Shown: in pieces, positions 7,343-62,936 of the stretch
Position numbering within the stretch: position 1 is the first letter of the stretch
How the letters are laid out: each line of letters opens with the position of its first letter
Assembly (NCBI GenBank): GCA_034520365.1
Contig: JAXHNP010000003.1
Location: 248,001-312,000, forward strand
Origin: Desulfobacterales bacterium
GTDB lineage: Bacteria; Desulfobacterota; Desulfobacteria; Desulfobacterales; Desulfosalsimonadaceae
Length of the DNA: 64,000 nucleotides
Reading direction: 5' to 3'
Made by a program: the position numbers and the translations under genes
Notes under the pieces: model-generated
What the model saw: the letters and a program-made list of their open reading frames with translations, nothing else
Told to the model about the DNA's origin: nothing
Databases searched by the model: none

Positions 7343-7496
7343 GCTTGCCAGCGGCTCCCCCCAGATTTTATAACATATTAAAATAACTTCAAATTAAATG
7401 AATCCGACAAGGTTGGCATCCAGCTTGAATAGACACTACCGAGACAATTTTTTCGAGTATCCGATCAAACGCTTAAATAAGGAAAGGAGTGGTACA

Positions 7497-8900
7497 ATGC
7501 GTCATCTGGTATGGATGTTTTTGGCGGTTATTTTCATATCAAGCCCGGCAGCGGCGGTGGATCATGGAAATTTCATGGTTGATGAATATGCGGATGGCCC
7601 TGCCGTGACCCAAGCCTGCCTGCAATGCCATCATGAGCAGGGCCAGGACTTTATAGAGACCGCCCACTGGCGCTGGAAGGGGCCAGCCCCCCATGTTAGC
7701 GGGATTAAAGCCGATAAAGAACTGGGCAAACGAATGCTGATGAACAACTTCTGAGTGAGCATCGAGTCGAACTGGTGCAGTTGCACCAAATGTCATGCCG
7801 GCTATGGCTGGCAGGATGAAGCGTTTGATGCTTGTGGAAAGGAAGACGGTTTCTGCTTCGATGACCCGTCAAGGGCCGATTGCCTGGTCTGCCATGACAC
7901 CACCGGCACCTATGATAAAAAGAAAAATACCTGCGGCTATCCAAACGAATCCGTGGATCTCGGTAAAGTGGCCCGAAATGTCGGCATGCCGGATCGTTCC
8001 AATTGCGGGACCTGCCACTGGTATGGCGGCGGCGGCAATAATGTAAAACACGGGGATATGGGCGACGCCCTGGCTGATCCGTCTCCGGATCTTGACTTCC
8101 ATATGGGGGCGCTTGATTTTACCTGCCAGGAATGCCACACCACCGAGAACCATCGCATCGCCGGCAGAAGCACCACGTCTTCCGTGAGTGAAGGCAAGGT
8201 GACGTGCACGGACTGCCACGCCCCTGCCCCCCACGATTCGGATTCCCCGGTGCTGGAGCAACTTAATTCCCACTGCGATGCCATCGCCTGCCAGACATGC
8301 CACATTCCGAAATATGCCAAGCAGACGAAGACCACAACGCGCTGGGATTGGTCCAGGAGCGGCGAGCCCGGCAAGATGCTGGAAGAGACTGATCAAAAAA
8401 CAAAAAAGATAAACAAGAAAAAGGGATTTCTGATCAAAGAAAAAGGGCTAATTCCGTCCTATGACTGGTACAACGGCAAACACCGGCGCTATCTAAAAGG
8501 CGATCCGGTTAACATAGCCGGCGTTACGTATTTGAATCCGCCCATGGGCGACATCAATGATCCAGCGGCAAAAATCACGCCCTACAAATTAATGAAAAGT
8601 AAAGTGCCGGCGGATAAAAACCTCGAACACCTGATCGTCCCGAAACTCCATAACGGCTATTTCACCAATTATGACTGGCAGGAAGCGGCCCGAAAAGGAA
8701 TGAAGACCGCCGGTTTGGATTTCAGCGGGGAGATCACATTCGTGGAAACCGTCATGCACTGGCGGCTCAATCACGAAATCGCCCCGAAGCAGGAGGCGCT
8801 CTCCTGCCTGGACTGCCATGGCACAGAAGGCGTCATGGATTTCAAGGCCCTGGGCTACAAGGGCGATCCGGCGGTTACCGGCGGCAGAAGCTTAAAATAG
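7497..8900 (+). CDS. octaheme c-type cytochrome (tetrathionate reductase/OTR family) with in-frame TGA, probable selenoprotein
   Basis: 467 codons if TGA at 7752-7754 is read through. The start follows AAGGAAAGGAG and encodes a signal peptide (MRHLVWMFLAVIFISSPAAA). Eight CxxCH haem motifs are present: C41, C96, C129, C170, C210, C237, C265 and C437; the first lies before the TGA and seven after it, in the same frame, so neither half alone makes sense. The text around the TGA, MNNF-(TGA)-VSIESNWCSCTKCH, matches the NNFCI...RCTSCH pattern I remember for this family, which places TGA at a conserved cysteine (residue 86). A SECIS-like hairpin follows at 7773. Family members are periplasmic multihaem reductases for sulfur or nitrogen oxyanions. 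Alternative: a nonsense mutation or sequencing error. Confidence 0.8.
7752..7754 (+). other. in-frame TGA, candidate selenocysteine codon (residue 86)
   Basis: The frame stays open on both sides (7398 to 8900 apart from this codon) and the protein family reads straight through. The position corresponds to a cysteine in homologues, the usual situation for selenocysteine-containing variants. No sel genes or tRNA-Sec are in this window, so decoding capacity cannot be confirmed here. Confidence 0.7.
7773..7788 (+). promoter_or_regulatory. SECIS-like hairpin just after the TGA
   Basis: TGGTGC-AGTT-GCACCA forms a 6-bp perfect stem with a four-base loop containing GU. The loop begins 24 bases after the TGA, inside the range known for bacterial SECIS elements (roughly 16-37 bases). 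The apical part closely resembles that of E. coli fdhF (GGUUGC-AGGUCU-GCACC, from memory). Confidence 0.65.
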
Positions 8901-11370: not shown

Positions 11371-13131
11371 TCAGGATCGATCAAGCCCATATTTTTTCAT
11401 TTTTTTATACAGGGTGCGGCGGTTGACGCCAAGGCGGTCGGCCGCCCGGCCCCGATGCCACTTGGTATTTTCAAGGGCTGAAAGGATCAGATCCTTCTCA
11501 TAACCCGCCAGCGCCGTATCCAGCTCAACCGGCGCATCCATTGGCGGCGGGGCCTGGCCGGATTCGGGCGATCTCAGGATATCAAACTGGTGCAGGGTAA
11601 AATACCGATGCAGGGCATTCTGCAGCTCCCGCACGTTGCCCGGCCAGTCATAACAGTAAATGGCATCCATGATTTCTCCGGTAATCGGCGGAAGCTCGGA
11701 ATCCGCCGGATAGCTCTGCCGAAAATGCTCCACCAAGAGGGACAGGTCCTCTTTGCGCTCGCGCAGGGGCGGCAGATGAATCGGGATCACATGGATCCGG
11801 TAAAAAAAATCCTCCCGCATGCCGCCGGATTTAACCAGTTCGCGAAGCTTGCGGTGGGTAGCCCCGATAAACCGAATATGGGGATATTGCGGCTGGGTCG
11901 CCCCGACCGGCGTATATCCATGGCCTTCAAGAACCCGAAGCAGCTTAACCTGCATGTTAAGGCCAATCTCGCCCAGTTCATCCAGAAAAAGGGTGCCCCC
12001 GTCTGCCAGCGCCAGATAGCCGTGCTTGTCCCGTCCCGCGCCGGTGAAGGCCCCCTTTTTATATCCAAAAAACTCGCTTTCAAGCAGTGTTTCCGGGATC
12101 GCCCCGCAGTTGACCACCACGAACGGTTCATGCTGCCGGTCGCTGTTTTCGTGAATCGCCTTGGCCACTAGCTCCTTGCCGGTGCCGGATTCCCCGTAAA
12201 TGATGATATTGGCATCTGTGGCCGCGGCATTTAATATCAGGTCATATACCGCCTGCATGGGCTGGCTCTTGCCGATGATGTCCCCGAACCGGAAACGCTC
12301 CCGCATGGAGGATTTAAGCCGCACATTTTCCTTGCGCAAATAGGCCGCCCGCTCGGCAAGGGCCCTTTCCTCCCGCTTTCGCTTGGTGATATCAATCACC
12401 AGGGCTTCCAGCTGGCTCACCGCATCACCCCCCTCATATATCGGAGAAAGGATGGCCTCATACCAGCGCCCGTCCATGGGGTGCTCAAATTCGACTCGCT
12501 CGGTTCCGCCGCCGAAAACAGACTTCTGACTGCACCAGGAACATGGTTGGCTCAGCCCATACAGGGCCTCATGGCATCGCTCGCCCGTGGCATCCCGGCC
12601 GATCTTGTCGATGAGCCCCCGGTTCATAAATGTAATCCGCAGCTCATGGTCACAGATATAGATATCGCCCTGAACCGCCTCAATGATGGTACGCAGCTTG
12701 GCCTCGCTTTCCTTAAGCGCCTTTTCCGTGTGCTTAAGGGAGGTAATATCCATAAACGAGGCAATGCTGAGCCTGCCATCCGGCAGCATCCCCACCTTCA
12801 TAAATATATGGCGGAGCTCACCGGCCCGGTTATACACCCGGCATTCATATTCGGCCGGCGCCGCTTCGTCTCCTTGTCTTCGGGCATAGTGGTAGGCCTG
12901 CATCCGCTCCAGATCCTCCGGGGCGACAAACGCCGACCATTTCATGCGGTTCTCGATTTCCTGCTTGGAATAGCCGGAAAGCTTCTCAAACTCGGCATTG
13001 GCCATGGCGATGGTCATATCCGGCTCGATAATAATGGAGGCCGCCCCGGATTTTTCAAATGCGCTCAGGTAATGCGTCTGATTCCGGCCGCGATTGGCTG
13101 CTTCATGGGTATTTTTATTGGACTCCGCCAT
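11371..13131 (-). CDS. sigma54-dependent transcriptional activator with two PAS domains
   Basis: 586 residues. Two N-terminal PAS sensor domains (about 22-130 and 140-255, the second ending in an ITKRKREE linker and a short coiled coil), then a sigma54 AAA+ domain (about 283-515) with Walker A GESGTGKE, the sigma54-contacting GAFTGA loop intact, Walker B GTLFLDELGE and the arginine-finger region FFYRIHVIPIHLPPLRER, then a Fis-type helix-turn-helix (GRAADRLGVNRRTLYKKMKK) at the end. No receiver domain, so it senses a small ligand or redox state directly through PAS; the second PAS has a CSWC pair that might bind metal or respond to redox. The target genes are unknown. Confidence 0.93.
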   Translation of the reverse strand: MAESNKNTHEAANRGRNQTHYLSAFEKSGAASIIIEPDMTIAMANAEFEKLSGYSKQEIENRMKWSAFVAPEDLERMQAYHYARRQGDEAAPAEYECRVYNRAGELRHIFMKVGMLPDGRLSIASFMDITSLKHTEKALKESEAKLRTIIEAVQGDIYICDHELRITFMNRGLIDKIGRDATGERCHEALYGLSQPCSWCSQKSVFGGGTERVEFEHPMDGRWYEAILSPIYEGGDAVSQLEALVIDITKRKREERALAERAAYLRKENVRLKSSMRERFRFGDIIGKSQPMQAVYDLILNAAATDANIIIYGESGTGKELVAKAIHENSDRQHEPFVVVNCGAIPETLLESEFFGYKKGAFTGAGRDKHGYLALADGGTLFLDELGEIGLNMQVKLLRVLEGHGYTPVGATQPQYPHIRFIGATHRKLRELVKSGGMREDFFYRIHVIPIHLPPLRERKEDLSLLVEHFRQSYPADSELPPITGEIMDAIYCYDWPGNVRELQNALHRYFTLHQFDILRSPESGQAPPPMDAPVELDTALAGYEKDLILSALENTKWHRGRAADRLGVNRRTLYKKMKKYGLDRS

Positions 13132-16840: not shown

Positions 16841-17674
16841 ATGATAACCAGTTCAGGTTTGTTTTCAATTATTACATTTATTTATGGGCTGGCTGTCCTT
16901 CTGTATATCAGTGCCTGGATATTTAAAAAGGAACTGCCCGGAAAACTGGCCACTGCGGCCACAATTACCGCGGTGACCGGGAATTTGATCGGGATTATCC
17001 TTCGCTGGATCGAATCCTACCAGATGGGCTACGGCCATGCCCCGCTATCCAATCTCTATGAATCCCTGGTGTTTTTTGCCTTCTGCATCGCCGCCTTGTA
17101 CCTGTTTCTAGAATTTCGCTATAAACTCCGGATTATCGGCGTGGTGGCAAGCCCCATCTCTTTTCTGGCTATGGCCTATGCGTCGCTGCCCAAAGTGAAC
17201 AGCAGCATTGAACCCTTAATCCCCGCGCTCCAGAGCAATTGGCTGATCGCGCACGTGATTACCTGTTTTATCGGCTATGCCGCTTTCGCCGTGGCCTTTG
17301 GCATCAGCCTCCTCTATTTTATCAAAGCCGGCCGCGATCATCAGACGGGCGGGGTTGCCGGAAAAATTCCCCATGTGGACATGTTAGATGAGCTGACCCA
17401 TCAGATGGTCATGTTCGGATTTCTCTTCCTTTCGGCAGGGATCATCACCGGCGCGGTATGGGCCAATCAGGCCTGGGGCCGGTACTGGGGATGGGACCCG
17501 AAGGAGACCTGGTCGCTTATCACCTGGCTCATCTATGCATCCCTTTTGCATGCCCGGATGATGCGGGGCTGGACCGGCAAAAAGATTGCAGTCCTCTGCT
17601 GCGCGGGTTTCCTGGCGGTAATCTTTACCTATTTCGGCGTCAACCTGCTTCCGGGATTGCATAGTTATCAGTAA
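16841..17674 (+). CDS. ccsA: cytochrome c biogenesis protein CcsA/ResC
   Basis: 277 residues with eight predicted membrane helices. The haem-handling WWD motif is present as WGRYWGWDPKETWSLITWL near residue 212, flanked by histidines in other helices (HVITCFIGYAAFA, LLHARMMRGW), as in the CcsA family. It forms the System II synthetase with ResB. It starts 3 bases after the resB stop, so translational coupling is likely, and the qrc operon follows on the same strand. Confidence 0.93.
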   Translation: MITSSGLFSIITFIYGLAVLLYISAWIFKKELPGKLATAATITAVTGNLIGIILRWIESYQMGYGHAPLSNLYESLVFFAFCIAALYLFLEFRYKLRIIGVVASPISFLAMAYASLPKVNSSIEPLIPALQSNWLIAHVITCFIGYAAFAVAFGISLLYFIKAGRDHQTGGVAGKIPHVDMLDELTHQMVMFGFLFLSAGIITGAVWANQAWGRYWGWDPKETWSLITWLIYASLLHARMMRGWTGKKIAVLCCAGFLAVIFTYFGVNLLPGLHSYQ

Positions 17675-17687
17675 TTTGACATTTTTA

Positions 17688-17716
17688 TTGACATCCGGCT
17701 TCAAAATAGATATCCA
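17688..17716 (+). promoter_or_regulatory. possible sigma70 promoter for the qrc operon
   Basis: TTGACA at 17688-17693, 17-base spacer, TATCCA at 17711-17716. The -35 is perfect and the -10 weak. A second TTGACA lies 12 bases earlier. The qrcA start is about 90 bases downstream. Confidence 0.4.
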
Positions 17717-17804
17717 ATTTTTCTTTAAATATAATAAACGCAAATGGATATGCATGGATCAATACGGGGATAATCACACATCAACGTAGCATAACGGAGT
17801 ATTC

Positions 17805-18479
17805 ATGAACACCAACGATCAACAACATCCGGCCTCCCACCCGGCATCCCCGGAATCCGGCGATGCCCCAGAAAAGCGCAGCAACGGCTCCGGCTGGTTT
17901 ATTCTGCTCTTTTTTATCATCGGTTTCATCGGCAGCGTTTTGAGCGGCTGGCTCCTGTTTCCCAACATGCTCTATTCGGAAAAAGAGCAGCCCATCGACT
18001 TCAATCATGAACTTCATATGGGCGTTGTTTATGAAGGCTGCCAGAGCTGCCACTACTTCCGCTCCGACGGCAGCTTCTCCGGTATCCCCGACCTTTACTC
18101 CTGTTCCGGCTGTCACCAGTTCGTCCAAGGGACCGACCCGGAAGAGGAAAAATTTGTCAACGAATACGTACTGCCCAATAAGGAAGTCCCCTGGCTGGTT
18201 TACTCCAAGCAGCCGGACTGCGTGTTCTTCTCCCATGCCGCCCATGTCAAGGGTGCCGGCATGGATTGCAAAACCTGCCACGGCGACATCGGCCATTCCA
18301 CCCATTCCCGGCCCTACCAGGAGAACCGTTTGACCGGTTACAGCCGGGATATCTGGGGCTACAACATCGCCCGGCTGGGCGAAGCCAAACACGGCATGCG
18401 GATGAAGATGAACGACTGCGCCGATTGCCATGAAAAGGAAACCGGCCACAAAGGATACTGCTTTCAATGCCATCAGTAA
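17805..18479 (+). CDS. qrcA: QrcA, membrane-anchored multihaem cytochrome c of the menaquinone reductase complex
   Basis: 224 residues. An N-terminal membrane anchor (residues 31-52) is followed by a periplasmic cytochrome domain with five CxxCH motifs at C79, C100, C155, C205 and C219. QrcA is described as hexahaem; here the only further cysteine is C139 in DCVFFSH, which could hold a sixth haem through one thioether bond, but that is inference. QrcA receives electrons from the periplasmic type I cytochrome c3 pool (from hydrogenases and formate dehydrogenases) and passes them to the quinone. First gene of qrcABCD; GGAG lies 6 bases before the ATG. Confidence 0.92.
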   Translation: MNTNDQQHPASHPASPESGDAPEKRSNGSGWFILLFFIIGFIGSVLSGWLLFPNMLYSEKEQPIDFNHELHMGVVYEGCQSCHYFRSDGSFSGIPDLYSCSGCHQFVQGTDPEEEKFVNEYVLPNKEVPWLVYSKQPDCVFFSHAAHVKGAGMDCKTCHGDIGHSTHSRPYQENRLTGYSRDIWGYNIARLGEAKHGMRMKMNDCADCHEKETGHKGYCFQCHQ

Positions 18480-18521
18480 CTGGTATTGCCGAACTGGATA
18501 TTGATATAAGGGGTTAAATCC

Positions 18522-20804
18522 ATGAAAATTGATCGAAGAAGTTTTATCTCGTTGGGCGTCGGGGTGATCGTCGGCTCTACGCTTACGCCGGTGCCTTGGA
18601 AACTGACGGACGATATATCGATCTGGACCCAGAACTGGCCGTGGACGCCTGTGCCCAAAGACGGACCGGATTCTTACAAGACCAGCGTTTGTACCCTTTG
18701 TCCGGGCGGCTGCGGCATTCGGGTACGAAAAATCGTCGACCGGGCGGTCAAAATCGACGGCCTGCCGGAGCACCCGGTTAGTCAGGGTAAGCTCTGTCCG
18801 CTGGGGCATTCCGGTCTTCAGTTCCTCTATGGCCCGTCACGGGTGAAAGCCCCTATGAAACGCGTCGGCAAGCGGGGCGAAGGCAAGTGGCAGAAAATTA
18901 CCTGGGAAGAAGCCATTTCAGCGGTCACCGGCAAATTAAAGGAACTGCGGGATGAGCAGAAACCGCATACAGTGGCCTGGGTGGCGGGCGATGATAGGGG
19001 CACCCTGCCCCAGCTGATCTACCGGTTCCTGACCGCCTACGGGTCACCGAATTTTATCCGGCCGCCGACGGTACAGGATGCCTATGAACTGGCCGCTTAC
19101 CTGATGCAGGGCCAGCAGGGGACTGTGGGCTTTGATATCGAAAATGCCGATCATGTGCTAAGCTTTGGCACCGGCCTGTTCCAGGGCTGGAGCTCCCCTG
19201 CCCGGATGTTAAGCATTTACGGCAAGATGCATGACAATAAAAAATTTGTTCAAATCGAACCCCGGCTCTCGGATACCGCAGCCAAGGCCCATCAATGGGT
19301 TCCCATCACGCCGGGCACCGAGGGGGCCCTGGCTTTGGGCATCGCCCACGTGATGATCAGGGAATCCCTTTACAATGAAGCCTTTGTCAGCAAATGGGCC
19401 TTCGGATTCGAGGACTGGACCGATGATAGCGGCAAGCGCCACATGGGATTCAAGAACCTGGTCCTAAAGGACTATGCGCCGGAAATTGTGGCCGAGATCA
19501 CCAGTGTGCCCAAACCCATGATCGAAAAGCTGGCCCGCCAGTTTGCCCGCGCCAAGAAGCCTATTGCCGTAAGCGGGCGCGGCCAGGGCCACCTGCCGGG
19601 CAGCCTCGATGAATGCATGGCGGTTCATGCCCTAAATGCCCTGGCCGGAAACATCAACCAGCCGGGCGGTGTCTCTGTTGTGGCTGAGCCGGATTATGCC
19701 AAATGGCCGGAAGTAAACATTGATAAAACCGCATCCAAAGGCCTTCAGAACGCGCGGGTGGACGGAGCCGGCAGCGACCAATACCCGAATGCCAGATTTC
19801 TGCTGCACCGACTGCCCGAGGTGATTAACAGCACCAAAGGGGACTCACCGGTGCAGGCGCTTTTGGTAAGTGACGCCAATCCCCTTTATACGCTTCCCGA
19901 TACCCAGGCCACCAAAGCGGCCCTGGATAAAATCCCGTTTCTGGTCAGCTTCTCCTCCTTTATGGATGAAACCGCCAGTTATTCGGATTATATCCTGCCA
20001 GACCATGTTTTTCTTGAAAGCTACTCGGATGTGCCTACCCCGCCGGGCACCGTCCAGCCGGTCATTGGACTTTCCAAGCCCGTGGTCCGGCCGCAATACG
20101 ACACCCGGCCCGTAGGGAATCTGGTCATCCAAATGGCCAAGGCCATGGGCTCGTTTGTTGAAAAGGCGTTTGCCTGGAAGGACTACCAGGCCTACTTAAA
20201 AGACGCGTTGAAGGATCACTGGGACCAACTGGAAAAAAAGGGCTTTGCGTTCATCAAGGGGCCGCAGGACATTCCATTTACCGATCAGTTCAATACGACC
20301 ACCGGCAAATTTGAATTCTACCCTTCGGCGAGAAACAACGCAAACGGCAAGGATAAAGATATTCTGCCAAACTTCACCAAGGTGGCCATCGAAGGAGAAT
20401 CCGGTCAGCTCCCGCTGATCCTGGTTCCCTATGATTCCATCCGGCTTGCCGGCGGAGAAATCGGCAATCCGCCGTTTATGACCAAAACCATCGATGAAAC
20501 GGTGCTGCTGGATCAGACCGTTTTTGTGGAGATTAACCCAAAGACCGCCCGAAAGATGGGATTTTTTGAGGGCGACCGGGTGCGGCTGTCTACTCCGAGA
20601 GGCCAGGCAGAAGTCAAGCTCCACCTTTATGAGGGCGTCGAACCGGGTGTTGTCGCCATGCCCCGGGGCTTTGGCCATACCGCCTATTCCAAATACCTGA
20701 CAGACAAGGGCGTCAATTTCAACAAACTAATCGGCCCGATCGAAGACCCGATGTCCGGGCTGAATGCGGCATGGGGCATCCGGGCGAATATAACAAAGGC
20801 CTAA
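18522..20804 (+). CDS. qrcB: QrcB, molybdopterin-oxidoreductase-like subunit of the menaquinone reductase complex
   Basis: 760 residues. A twin-arginine motif RRSFIS at residues 5-10 fits export of the folded subunit to the periplasmic face. C57, C60, C64 and C92 (CTLCPGGC...LCPLGH) form the single 4Fe-4S site typical of the DMSO-reductase family. The rest follows the family fold (GRGQGHLPGS, HALNALAGNINQPGG, C-terminal FEGDRVRLSTPRGQAEVKL). In characterised Qrc the protein has lost molybdenum cofactor and serves as a structural/electron-path subunit. Located 42 bases after qrcA. Confidence 0.93.
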   Translation: MKIDRRSFISLGVGVIVGSTLTPVPWKLTDDISIWTQNWPWTPVPKDGPDSYKTSVCTLCPGGCGIRVRKIVDRAVKIDGLPEHPVSQGKLCPLGHSGLQFLYGPSRVKAPMKRVGKRGEGKWQKITWEEAISAVTGKLKELRDEQKPHTVAWVAGDDRGTLPQLIYRFLTAYGSPNFIRPPTVQDAYELAAYLMQGQQGTVGFDIENADHVLSFGTGLFQGWSSPARMLSIYGKMHDNKKFVQIEPRLSDTAAKAHQWVPITPGTEGALALGIAHVMIRESLYNEAFVSKWAFGFEDWTDDSGKRHMGFKNLVLKDYAPEIVAEITSVPKPMIEKLARQFARAKKPIAVSGRGQGHLPGSLDECMAVHALNALAGNINQPGGVSVVAEPDYAKWPEVNIDKTASKGLQNARVDGAGSDQYPNARFLLHRLPEVINSTKGDSPVQALLVSDANPLYTLPDTQATKAALDKIPFLVSFSSFMDETASYSDYILPDHVFLESYSDVPTPPGTVQPVIGLSKPVVRPQYDTRPVGNLVIQMAKAMGSFVEKAFAWKDYQAYLKDALKDHWDQLEKKGFAFIKGPQDIPFTDQFNTTTGKFEFYPSARNNANGKDKDILPNFTKVAIEGESGQLPLILVPYDSIRLAGGEIGNPPFMTKTIDETVLLDQTVFVEINPKTARKMGFFEGDRVRLSTPRGQAEVKLHLYEGVEPGVVAMPRGFGHTAYSKYLTDKGVNFNKLIGPIEDPMSGLNAAWGIRANITKA

Positions 20805-20865
20805 TTCCCGGCAATTCAGAGGCTCTCTAAAACCGGGAAAATAAACAGTCAGCGATGAGGTTGGG

Positions 20866-21678
20866 ATGAAAGAACAACATGGATACACAAGCACCAAGCG
20901 CTACGGCATGGTCATCGATCTTGACAAATGCACCGGCTGTGGGGCCTGCATGGTGGCGTGTTACGCCGAAAACAATGTGCCGTTTAAAGAAAACGAGACG
21001 CACAAGCTTGACAGTCTCAACTGGATCCGGATCTTTCAGATAGACAACGGCAAACCCTATCCGGATACCGAAGTGTGCTATCTGCCGATGCCCTGCCAGC
21101 ATTGCGACGGAATCGGCAAGCACGGCCATTCGCCCTGTGTCTCAGTCTGCCCGGCAGTGGCCACCGATTATGACTATAACACCGGCGTGGTCAGCCAGAT
21201 CCCCACGCGATGCTTCGGCTGCCGATACTGTATGGCCGCCTGCCCCTATCATGCCAGAAAATTCAACTGGTGGGATCCGGTCTGGCCGGCGGATACGGAA
21301 AAATATTTAAATCCCGATGTATCCGCGCGGATGCGGGGCGTTGTTGAAAAATGTACTTTTTGTTTTCAGCGCTACCAGCAGGCCCGGGATAAGACCTATA
21401 TGGAGGGCCGGGATGAAATCCTTGAATCCGAATACCAGACCGCCTGTGCCGAAGCCTGCCCGACAAGCGCGATTATATTCGGCGATCTGCATAATCCGGA
21501 TCACGAGGTGGCCAAGTTAAAGGACAGCCCACGCGCCTTCCGGCTTCTGGAGCGGCTGCATACCAATCCCAAGGTCTATTATCTCTCCAGCAAATCCTGG
21601 GTGCGGCGCGCCGGGGACAATTATCTGGAAAATGAATCCAGGCCGCAGTCCGGCAGACAAGAGATTCACCATAAATAG
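20866..21678 (+). CDS. qrcC: QrcC, iron-sulfur subunit of the menaquinone reductase complex
   Basis: 270 residues with four cysteine groups: C22TGCGACMVAC, CQHCDG...CVSVCP, CFGCRYCMAACP and CTFCFQRY...CAEACP, enough for four clusters in the two-ferredoxin-fold layout of DmsB/NrfC-type subunits. It links QrcA/QrcB to the quinone-binding membrane subunit. Third gene of the operon, 61 bases after qrcB. Confidence 0.93.
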   Translation: MKEQHGYTSTKRYGMVIDLDKCTGCGACMVACYAENNVPFKENETHKLDSLNWIRIFQIDNGKPYPDTEVCYLPMPCQHCDGIGKHGHSPCVSVCPAVATDYDYNTGVVSQIPTRCFGCRYCMAACPYHARKFNWWDPVWPADTEKYLNPDVSARMRGVVEKCTFCFQRYQQARDKTYMEGRDEILESEYQTACAEACPTSAIIFGDLHNPDHEVAKLKDSPRAFRLLERLHTNPKVYYLSSKSWVRRAGDNYLENESRPQSGRQEIHHK

Positions 21679-21706
21679 TTAACCTATGGCAAGGAGCATG
21701 ACAAAT

Positions 21707-22948
21707 ATGGAGACGACGCCAATAATACCTCCGGGGGTAAAACGCTGCTCAAAAATGCAATTCACCCTGTGGATGGCTGCTGCCACGGCCGTCCTCCTCT
21801 GGGGGGTCTATGCCATGTATCTGATCTGGTACAAGGGATTGAACCAGACCAATATGAACGATGCATATGGCTTTGCCCTATGGATCTGGGCCGACCTGGC
21901 GGTCATTGCACTGGGCGGCGGCGCCTTTTTCACCGGTTTTCTGACCTATATTCTCGGCAAGGACAAACTCAAAAACATTATCAATTACGCCGTGATCATT
22001 GGATTTATCTGCTACAGTTCGGCGCTTCTGATCCTGGCCATTGATATCGGCCAACCCCTTCGGGGCTGGTTTATCTTCTGGCACGCCAATGAGCACTCTA
22101 TGTTAACCGAAGTGGCCTTCTGCCTGTCTTGTTACTTCGCCGTGCTGACCGTTGAATTTCTGCCCAACATATTTGAGAACCCGAAGCTGGATAAAATCCC
22201 GTTTCTGCATCACCTGGCCCATAACATGCACAGCATCATGGCGGTCTTTGCGGCCACCGGCGTGTTCCTCTCCTTCTTCCATCAAGGCTCATTGGGCGGT
22301 GTGTCCGGCGTCCTGTTCGGCCGACCCTTTTCCTACCGGGAAGGTATCAACGTGTGGCCCTGGACTTTCTTTCTGTTTACCTGGTCGGCGGCGGCCTGTG
22401 GCCCTTGTTTTACCATTCTCGTTACCTGGATTACCGAGAAGCTGACCCGCAAAAAACTGGTCAAAGACGATGTGATCCAGCTTCTGGCCAAAATCTCCGG
22501 CTGGATGCTGGCCACCTATATGATTGCCAAAATAGCGGATACCATCTATTGGGCTGTTGTGACCGCGCCCGGTATGGGTTTTTCATTCATGGATTTCTAT
22601 ACCAACAATCCGGTATACGGACTCTGGATTCTGATTCTGGAAATCGTGATCTGCGGGATCTTGCCGGCGGCCATTTTAATTACCCGCAAAGGCCGGGAGA
22701 ACAAATCGCTGCTCCTGCTGGCCGTGGTTCTGGCGGTGATCGGGGTTTCTGTCAATCGATGGGTGATGGTGCTCCAGACATTGGCCGTACCGGTGGTACC
22801 GTTTGAGAGCTGGTTCATGTATTCTCCCAGCTGGCAGGAGGTGGCGACAACGATTCTGCCGGTAGCTTACGGGGTTATCGTAATTTCCCTGGCGCACCGC
22901 TATCTGCCGGTATTTCCCCAGGAACGCGAACTCAACCCGACCAATTAA
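21707..22948 (+). CDS. qrcD: QrcD, NrfD/PsrC-type integral membrane quinone-binding subunit
   Basis: About 413 residues with ten hydrophobic helices. The NrfD-like core is visible (LIWYKGLNQTNMNDAYGFALWI, IGQPLRGWFIFWHANEHSM, GILPAAILI). It reduces menaquinone at the membrane. I choose ATG 21707 because AAGGAG (21691-21696) is 10 bases upstream; an ATG at 21698 lies too close to that site and one at 21686 lies before it. Confidence 0.92.
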   Translation: METTPIIPPGVKRCSKMQFTLWMAAATAVLLWGVYAMYLIWYKGLNQTNMNDAYGFALWIWADLAVIALGGGAFFTGFLTYILGKDKLKNIINYAVIIGFICYSSALLILAIDIGQPLRGWFIFWHANEHSMLTEVAFCLSCYFAVLTVEFLPNIFENPKLDKIPFLHHLAHNMHSIMAVFAATGVFLSFFHQGSLGGVSGVLFGRPFSYREGINVWPWTFFLFTWSAAACGPCFTILVTWITEKLTRKKLVKDDVIQLLAKISGWMLATYMIAKIADTIYWAVVTAPGMGFSFMDFYTNNPVYGLWILILEIVICGILPAAILITRKGRENKSLLLLAVVLAVIGVSVNRWVMVLQTLAVPVVPFESWFMYSPSWQEVATTILPVAYGVIVISLAHRYLPVFPQERELNPTN

Positions 22949-62778: not shown

Positions 62779-62811
62779 TTTAACCCCCTTAAAACAAAAA
62801 GCGCCGTAGGG

Positions 62812-62936
62812 GTGCTCACAATCTTGAAAGATTATACCCGGTCCTTTCGGATACCGGCCCCATAGCGCACATATTATCACCAATAAAAATAAATGGCCTT
62901 TTAACGCCTGGCCCTGGCGTTCAAGACTGTGAGCAC
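62812..62936. repeat. 17-bp inverted repeat pair, 91 bases apart
   Basis: GTGCTCACAATCTTGAA (62812-62828) and TTCAAGACTGTGAGCAC (62920-62936) match at 16 of 17 positions when inverted. A smaller palindrome AACGCC-TGGCCCT-GGCGTT (62902-62920) abuts the right arm. Located just upstream of the 62281-62778 gene, next to the origin-like region. Confidence 0.6.

Follow-up and report, generated by a model that had tools for sequence, protein, structure and literature searches.

A predicted selenocysteine at the family cysteine preceding heme II of an octaheme cytochrome

Does the single TGA that interrupts an octaheme cytochrome gene of a Desulfobacterales bacterium end a protein, or does it encode selenocysteine (Sec) where related enzymes carry cysteine? 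The gene lies within a 64,000-nucleotide stretch of contig JAXHNP010000003.1, hereafter the window, by which all positions are numbered. Its frame runs from the ATG at 7497 to the TAG at 8898–8900 and contains one in-frame TGA, at 7752–7754 (codon 86), within an NNF-U-V motif. An earlier note on this DNA had described an otherwise intact gene with eight CxxCH motifs and a signal peptide and heme 1 upstream of the TGA, and this layout is confirmed, with the signal-peptide-like N-terminus judged by eye; as the note had also claimed, automatic reading does split 7497–8900. TGA serves as an ordinary stop in the window too, closing 5 of 24 long ORFs (hand-picked from 28, four overlapping ones being omitted). 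The features of the gene, all on the plus strand, are as follows.

7480–7489, plus strand: purine-rich ribosome-binding-like stretch upstream of the ATG, read from the sequence
7497–8900, plus strand: OTR-family octaheme cytochrome gene, read through one TGA; 467 residues; ends in TAG
7617–7631, plus strand: heme 1 motif CLQCH
7752–7754, plus strand: TGA, candidate selenocysteine 86; faces Cys64 of 1SP3, and the relatives read have either Cys or TGA here
7773–7788, plus strand: SECIS-like hairpin of the SNWC type, stem UGGUGC/GCACCA; the loop, AGUU, begins 24 nt after the UGA
7776–7778, plus strand: Cys94 codon TGC, at +8 from Sec
7782–7796, plus strand: heme 2 motif CTKCH, which shares its first Cys codon with the hairpin
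7881–7895, plus strand: heme 3 motif CLVCH
8004–8018, plus strand: heme 4 motif CGTCH
8046–8048, plus strand: Lys184 codon
8124–8138, plus strand: heme 5 motif CQECH
8205–8219, plus strand: heme 6 motif CTDCH
8289–8303, plus strand: heme 7 motif CQTCH
8805–8819, plus strand: heme 8 motif CLDCH

The read-through protein scores 487.8 bits against TIGR04315, the tetrathionate reductase family octaheme c-type cytochrome (cut-off 375), and its residues 23–459 align with the octaheme tetrathionate reductase (OTR) of Shewanella oneidensis, PDB 1SP3, with an E value of 1.1e-113. When the alignment proposed in the earlier note was carried out, 1SP3 was found to read NNFCV opposite the TGA, so that residue 86 faces Cys64, as counted along the printed chain. 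The two proteins share the NNF-x site and the Lys of the family's VKHGD motif (Lys184 in the window protein, which is Lys153 of 1SP3 by alignment count); they differ in that 1SP3 has Cys64 where the window protein would have Sec. In the OTR structure paper of 2004, Lys153 is said to ligate heme II and Cys64 to line the pocket. Passages of a later article describe heme II of Shewanella OTR as the catalytic heme, and nitrite, hydroxylamine and tetrathionate as compounds that the enzyme reduces (PMC4484225). The proximity of the TGA to the second heme motif, also claimed in the earlier note, holds, with Sec86 standing ten residues ahead of the heme II motif; its placement in the active site rests on homology with heme II of OTR.

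To see how the site is occupied across relatives, we searched 291 genomes of the window's class with TIGR04315 (210 matched at E ≤ 0.001, 172 above the cut-off) and 36 genomes of its family (28 matched at E ≤ 0.001, 24 above the cut-off). The class census was drawn from the better-scoring matches listed, with at least one listed match, G172:C39, left out; its 178 aligned rows gave 166 distinct genes once doubly fetched places were removed, a set that includes L095–L097, with L096 and L097 below the family cut-off. The site is Cys (TGC or TGT) in 136 of these genes and TGA in the remaining 30, the window's included, with no other codon in any. Asn83, Sec/Cys86 and Lys184 are invariant in all 167 rows, which represent the 166 distinct genes with that of the window entered a second time. 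The Cys-or-Sec rule at NNF-x is a regularity found here, outside the curated definition of TIGR04315, and the window gene follows it.

Sec-type OTR genes are not rare in the phylum: in a sample of 395 genomes, one TGA was present in 31 of the 78 above-cut-off matches listed, as counted by hand. Outside the window's order there were 26 such genes among 62 listed above-cut-off matches. We took the sequences of all 26 and, from the remaining 36, of 12; the TGA stands at the same site in 26/26, and the 12 have Cys there. The expectation that homologues carry Cys at NNF-x is thus borne out by 1SP3 and by every non-TGA gene read (136/136 in the class, 12/12 in the phylum). Among individual relatives, a Desulfobacterales MAG (L202) encodes an 84% identical protein with TGA at the same place, and a Desulfobacteraceae MAG (L203) has a relative at 58% identity. 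Between the window gene and L202, dN/dS by the Nei–Gojobori method is 0.146/1.155 (about 0.13) before the TGA and 0.076/1.048 (about 0.07) after it; purifying selection acts on both sides of the codon. Two distant OTR relatives, L233 and L234 (genomes G447 and G556; about 188 bits, below the cut-off), also have a TGA aligned at the site, in a different motif (ETYU or HSYU ahead of APPNTVAGH), and may possibly represent a further Sec-bearing multiheme family.

Incorporation of Sec in bacteria depends on a SECIS hairpin with its loop 16–37 nt from the UGA and a G among the first two loop bases, and the hairpin at 7773–7788, with its loop AGUU at 24 nt, fits this model. Folded alone, it is unremarkable: z is −0.97, 33 of 200 shuffles equal it, 131 of 5000 synonymous recodings score equally high, and a search of Rfam gave no SECIS-like match for it. 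The case therefore rests on comparison.

Two SECIS-like designs, which we call NEAR and SNWC, are found 3′ of the UGA among the Sec genes. In the NEAR type, the codons AAC GAG GCT CGT TGC are identical in 16/16 genes and fold as GCAACGA-GGC-UCGUUGC. The SNWC type, with AGUU or AGGU as its loop, is present in 40 genes (14 from the class and 26 from the phylum), the window's among them. Its stem, compared over 37 distinct sequences, has the four innermost pairs in 37/37; moving outward, three more are present in 35, 34 and 34, and the last of these is CG in 29, TA in 5 and unpaired in 3, the window being among those without it. The 3′ arm overlaps the first Cys codon of the heme II motif, with all three of its bases in the NEAR type and two in the SNWC type. 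The exact NEAR pattern matched three times in the 395 phylum genomes, in each case within the window's order; beyond that order, all 26 TGA genes read follow the SNWC design. Since the SNWC stem hardly varies, covariation is weak: it comes down essentially to one pair, and in a 12-sequence set its covariation score is equalled or exceeded by 59 of 500 shuffles, its count of further pair types by all 500.

A uniform scan, requiring an unbroken stem of at least 6 pairs (G-U counting as a pair) and a G at loop position 1 or 2, was positive for 28/30 Sec genes vs 4/136 Cys genes in the class, and for 26/28 TGA genes vs 0/12 Cys genes in the phylum set, where the two TGA genes missed are L233 and L234. 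In the class, the Sec genes L199 and L200 retain only 4 pairs, and L198 scores through another register. Among 28 Cys homologues with NE(P/A/T)R, Pro replaces Ala in 22, and the full NEAR codons occur only in L047, where a TGT stands above a perfect NEAR hairpin. Two further Cys genes carry NEAR-like hairpins, slightly decayed and above the scan threshold in L041, more decayed and below it in L104. These three hairpins are apparently fossils of a Sec ancestor, left by recent Sec-to-Cys reversions. The Cys genes L108 and L155 have 6-pair stems as well, which the fossil reading does not explain.

The earlier note had named selA, selB, selC and selD as genes to look for, and all four are present in the host genome, G000 (4.33 Mb, 99.39% complete). 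A tRNA-Sec with anticodon TCA was identified at L001 (78.2 bits), SelB and SelA score 361.2 and 623.1 bits, and SelD (L018, G000:C2:26530-27453) matches with one in-frame TGA, so that SelD is probably itself a selenoprotein. In a hand-picked comparison of 58 genomes (28 with Sec-type OTR, 30 picked for a Cys-type gene), SelB was above the cut-off in 51; SelA was found in 23/28 Sec-OTR genomes, the remaining five being 87–92% complete, and in 30/30 of the Cys-type set. Because most relatives tested have SelA and SelB, the presence of the machinery discriminates little. The genomes with apparent reversions, G180, G124 and G110, likewise retain both (G180 as fragments only), and loss of the machinery therefore does not explain the change from Sec to Cys.

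Taken at face value, the split gene could be a decaying one in which a nonsense mutation or a sequencing error produced the TGA, and automatic reading does break it in two. That 30 class and 26 phylum genes share a TGA at this position makes a miscall unlikely and, with the low dN/dS on either side of the codon and the conserved hairpin, leaves decay or error hardly conceivable. The GTG at 7755, directly after the TGA, could be taken as the start of a separate heme 2–8 protein, with a heme 1 fragment ending at the TGA. However, in 13 of the 30 class Sec genes the TGA is followed by a codon other than ATG, GTG or TTG, the TGA occupies the position of a Cys in other relatives, and the downstream protein would begin without a signal peptide and should therefore miss the periplasmic heme-attachment system; we regard two proteins as extremely improbable. 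That the homologous residue is Cys could also mean that the UGA is decoded as Cys, or else as Trp, by an unusual tRNA, and tRNAs of such a kind are reportedly known. Yet the search for tRNA-Sec gave 11 matches, and among the 8 loci reported for them the anticodon TCA occurs only in L001, the tRNA-Sec itself, the tRNA-Trp in the window has CCA, and SelA, SelB, SelD and a SECIS-like hairpin are all present, which renders such decoding very improbable. With high confidence, although from sequence comparison, we read the TGA at 7752–7754 as selenocysteine at the Cys site of the OTR family before the heme II motif.

Under the selenocysteine reading, the product would be a periplasmic octaheme c-type cytochrome with Sec in place of the family Cys. 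SelB would bind the hairpin and bring Sec-tRNA to codon 86; the protein would be exported by its signal peptide, and its eight hemes attached by the cytochrome c maturation system. It may carry out the multi-electron reduction (or oxidation) of a sulfur compound or an oxyanion, with selenium at heme II serving as a low-pKa nucleophile or as a hydrogen or electron donor to the substrate. Electrons would pass along the heme chain to this substrate, which could be tetrathionate, polysulfide, nitrite, hydroxylamine or a seleno-analogue. By analogy with OTR, we give a catalytic role of Sec at heme II about an even chance.

Sec could instead be present for redox sensing or protection, for example as a Sec86–Cys94 selenosulfide, and not for catalysis at heme II. 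The residue at +8 from the site lends this some appeal: it is Cys in 40/40 Sec genes of the SNWC type and in 0/58 Cys homologues with CxxCH at +10, where Pro (46) prevails over Ala (8), Glu (2), Thr (1) and Asn (1); thioredoxin genes, moreover, lie at 4 of 13 related loci, the window's not among them. In the SNWC stem, however, the +8 codon pairs with the G-C-A of the heme II TGC-ACN, which by itself demands TGC or TGT, so that Cys94 can be a mere passenger of the hairpin; NEAR-type Sec genes, for their part, have Ala at +8 (16/16) and no partner Cys. The hairpin would seem to dictate the peptide here, the common +8 Pro giving way to Cys (SNWC) or Ala (NEAR) such that the RNA can pair. We consider a sensing or protective role unlikely, though far from negligible.

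Cys and Sec appear to have replaced one another repeatedly. In a combined tree of 127 rows, from which the site column and the hairpin-coded columns were excluded, the genes divide into two supported halves, one of 47 rows and one of 80, and both contain Cys, SNWC-Sec and NEAR-Sec genes. This tree requires at least 9 Cys/Sec changes, 7 of them forced by starred branches; it omits 77 of 85 wide-spaced Cys rows, chosen at random, together with L096, L097, L233 and L234. The class tree (165 rows, those shorter than 300 residues being omitted) likewise requires at least 9, of which 6 are forced by starred branches. Both are quick trees, rooted at the midpoint and with SH-aLRT as their sole measure of support, and give the number of changes and not their direction; it is the hairpin fossils that suggest that a change from Sec to Cys has happened. 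The window gene belongs to a clade of 17 rows, all of them of the Sec type. An ancient Sec state within the phylum is plausible, and the hairpin designs may have arisen by convergence.

The surroundings of the window gene include the following.

11371–13131, minus strand: PAS/sigma-54 activator, identified by Pfam
16841–22948: a CcsB cytochrome c biogenesis gene, then qrcA, qrcB, qrcC and qrcD (menaquinone reductase complex)
62797–62870, minus strand: match to the Rfam c4-2 sRNA, 49.6 bits (gathering threshold 41)

CcsB and qrcABCD nearby would fit an anaerobe of the sulfate-reducer type. In 13 loci of the window's clade, relatives of the sigma-54 activator, linked by BLAST, are near the gene in 10, the window's included; a thioredoxin is found at 4, a pyridine nucleotide-disulphide oxidoreductase at 4 and a DsrE relative at 3, and of these neighbour types the window locus has the activator only. 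At most, the clade's neighbours hint at thiol and sulfur chemistry. When upstream sigma-54 promoters were scored at the same loci, the candidates looked strong in L054, L055 and L056, where 0, 0 and 1 of 300 shuffles were as good as the real sequence; the figure was 34 of 300 for the window and at least 91 of 300 for each of the other nine.

Larger forms of the family exist as well. In L061, L062, L064, L090 and L201, the Sec-type OTR domain is fused to an N-terminal multiheme part, giving 13 CxxCH motifs in total. The NEAR-type 13-heme genes L061 and L201 come after genes for a 4Fe-4S protein and an NrfD membrane protein (by Pfam for L201, by a BLAST link for L061), which as predicted from the genes is the layout of a quinone-linked reductase. 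Cys-type OTR domains are found in frames of roughly 700–1160 residues in L095, L110, L113, L118, L119, L124, L128, L135, L137 and L149, and these large fusions group beside the 13-heme Sec forms in the tree.

That the OTR family is a selenoprotein family is already on record. A 2026 review of the prokaryotic selenoproteome lists the TIGR04315 octaheme family as selenocysteine-containing, with WP_331457571.1 as a "GenBank annotated" entry; in the portions of the review available to us, its table gives no Sec motif for the family, and the text uses the words "octaheme" and "tetrathionate" a single time each (PMC13188914). That protein and ours belong to one family and each has one annotated or predicted Sec, a likeness of family rather than of compared Sec sites. 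Our literature search, mostly of papers free of subscription, found among the papers listed no treatment of Sec in the OTR family beyond this review, and the matching passages of PMC5877670, PMC11273360 and PMC2628731 make no mention of it. New against the literature searched are the hairpins in their two designs, the spread of the Sec genes, the repeated Cys/Sec exchange and the 13-heme form beside NrfD; we further add the evidence for the site and the idea of selenium at the catalytic heme.

A Sec-bearing multiheme cytochrome is not unprecedented, as ExtKL of Geobacter (NF040886) is a five-heme cytochrome predicted with Sec, for which the authors, in the passages matched, suggest a part in selenite reduction (PMC5877670). 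Like the window protein it is a multiheme c-type cytochrome with a predicted Sec; it is set apart, by description rather than by sequence, through its five hemes and its other family. TsdA, a diheme thiosulfate dehydrogenase/tetrathionate reductase described in part of PMC5146829, also acts on sulfur compounds and has a Cys at its active heme, but it has two hemes and its Cys is a heme ligand.

Genes of this kind are liable to be split or truncated in annotation, through which a type of respiratory enzyme would stay hidden. The fuller picture, a heme–selenium centre in which a selenolate would stand beside the Lys-ligated catalytic heme of a multiheme reductase, ancient in the phylum, repeatedly exchanged with Cys and encoded with its hairpin within the heme attachment codons, seems to us evenly poised between right and wrong. 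The natural Cys and Sec forms, including close relatives apparently swapped recently, offer a system for probing selenium at a heme site. If the picture is true, some anaerobes would reduce oxyanions of sulfur, nitrogen or selenium through a selenium-tuned heme site.
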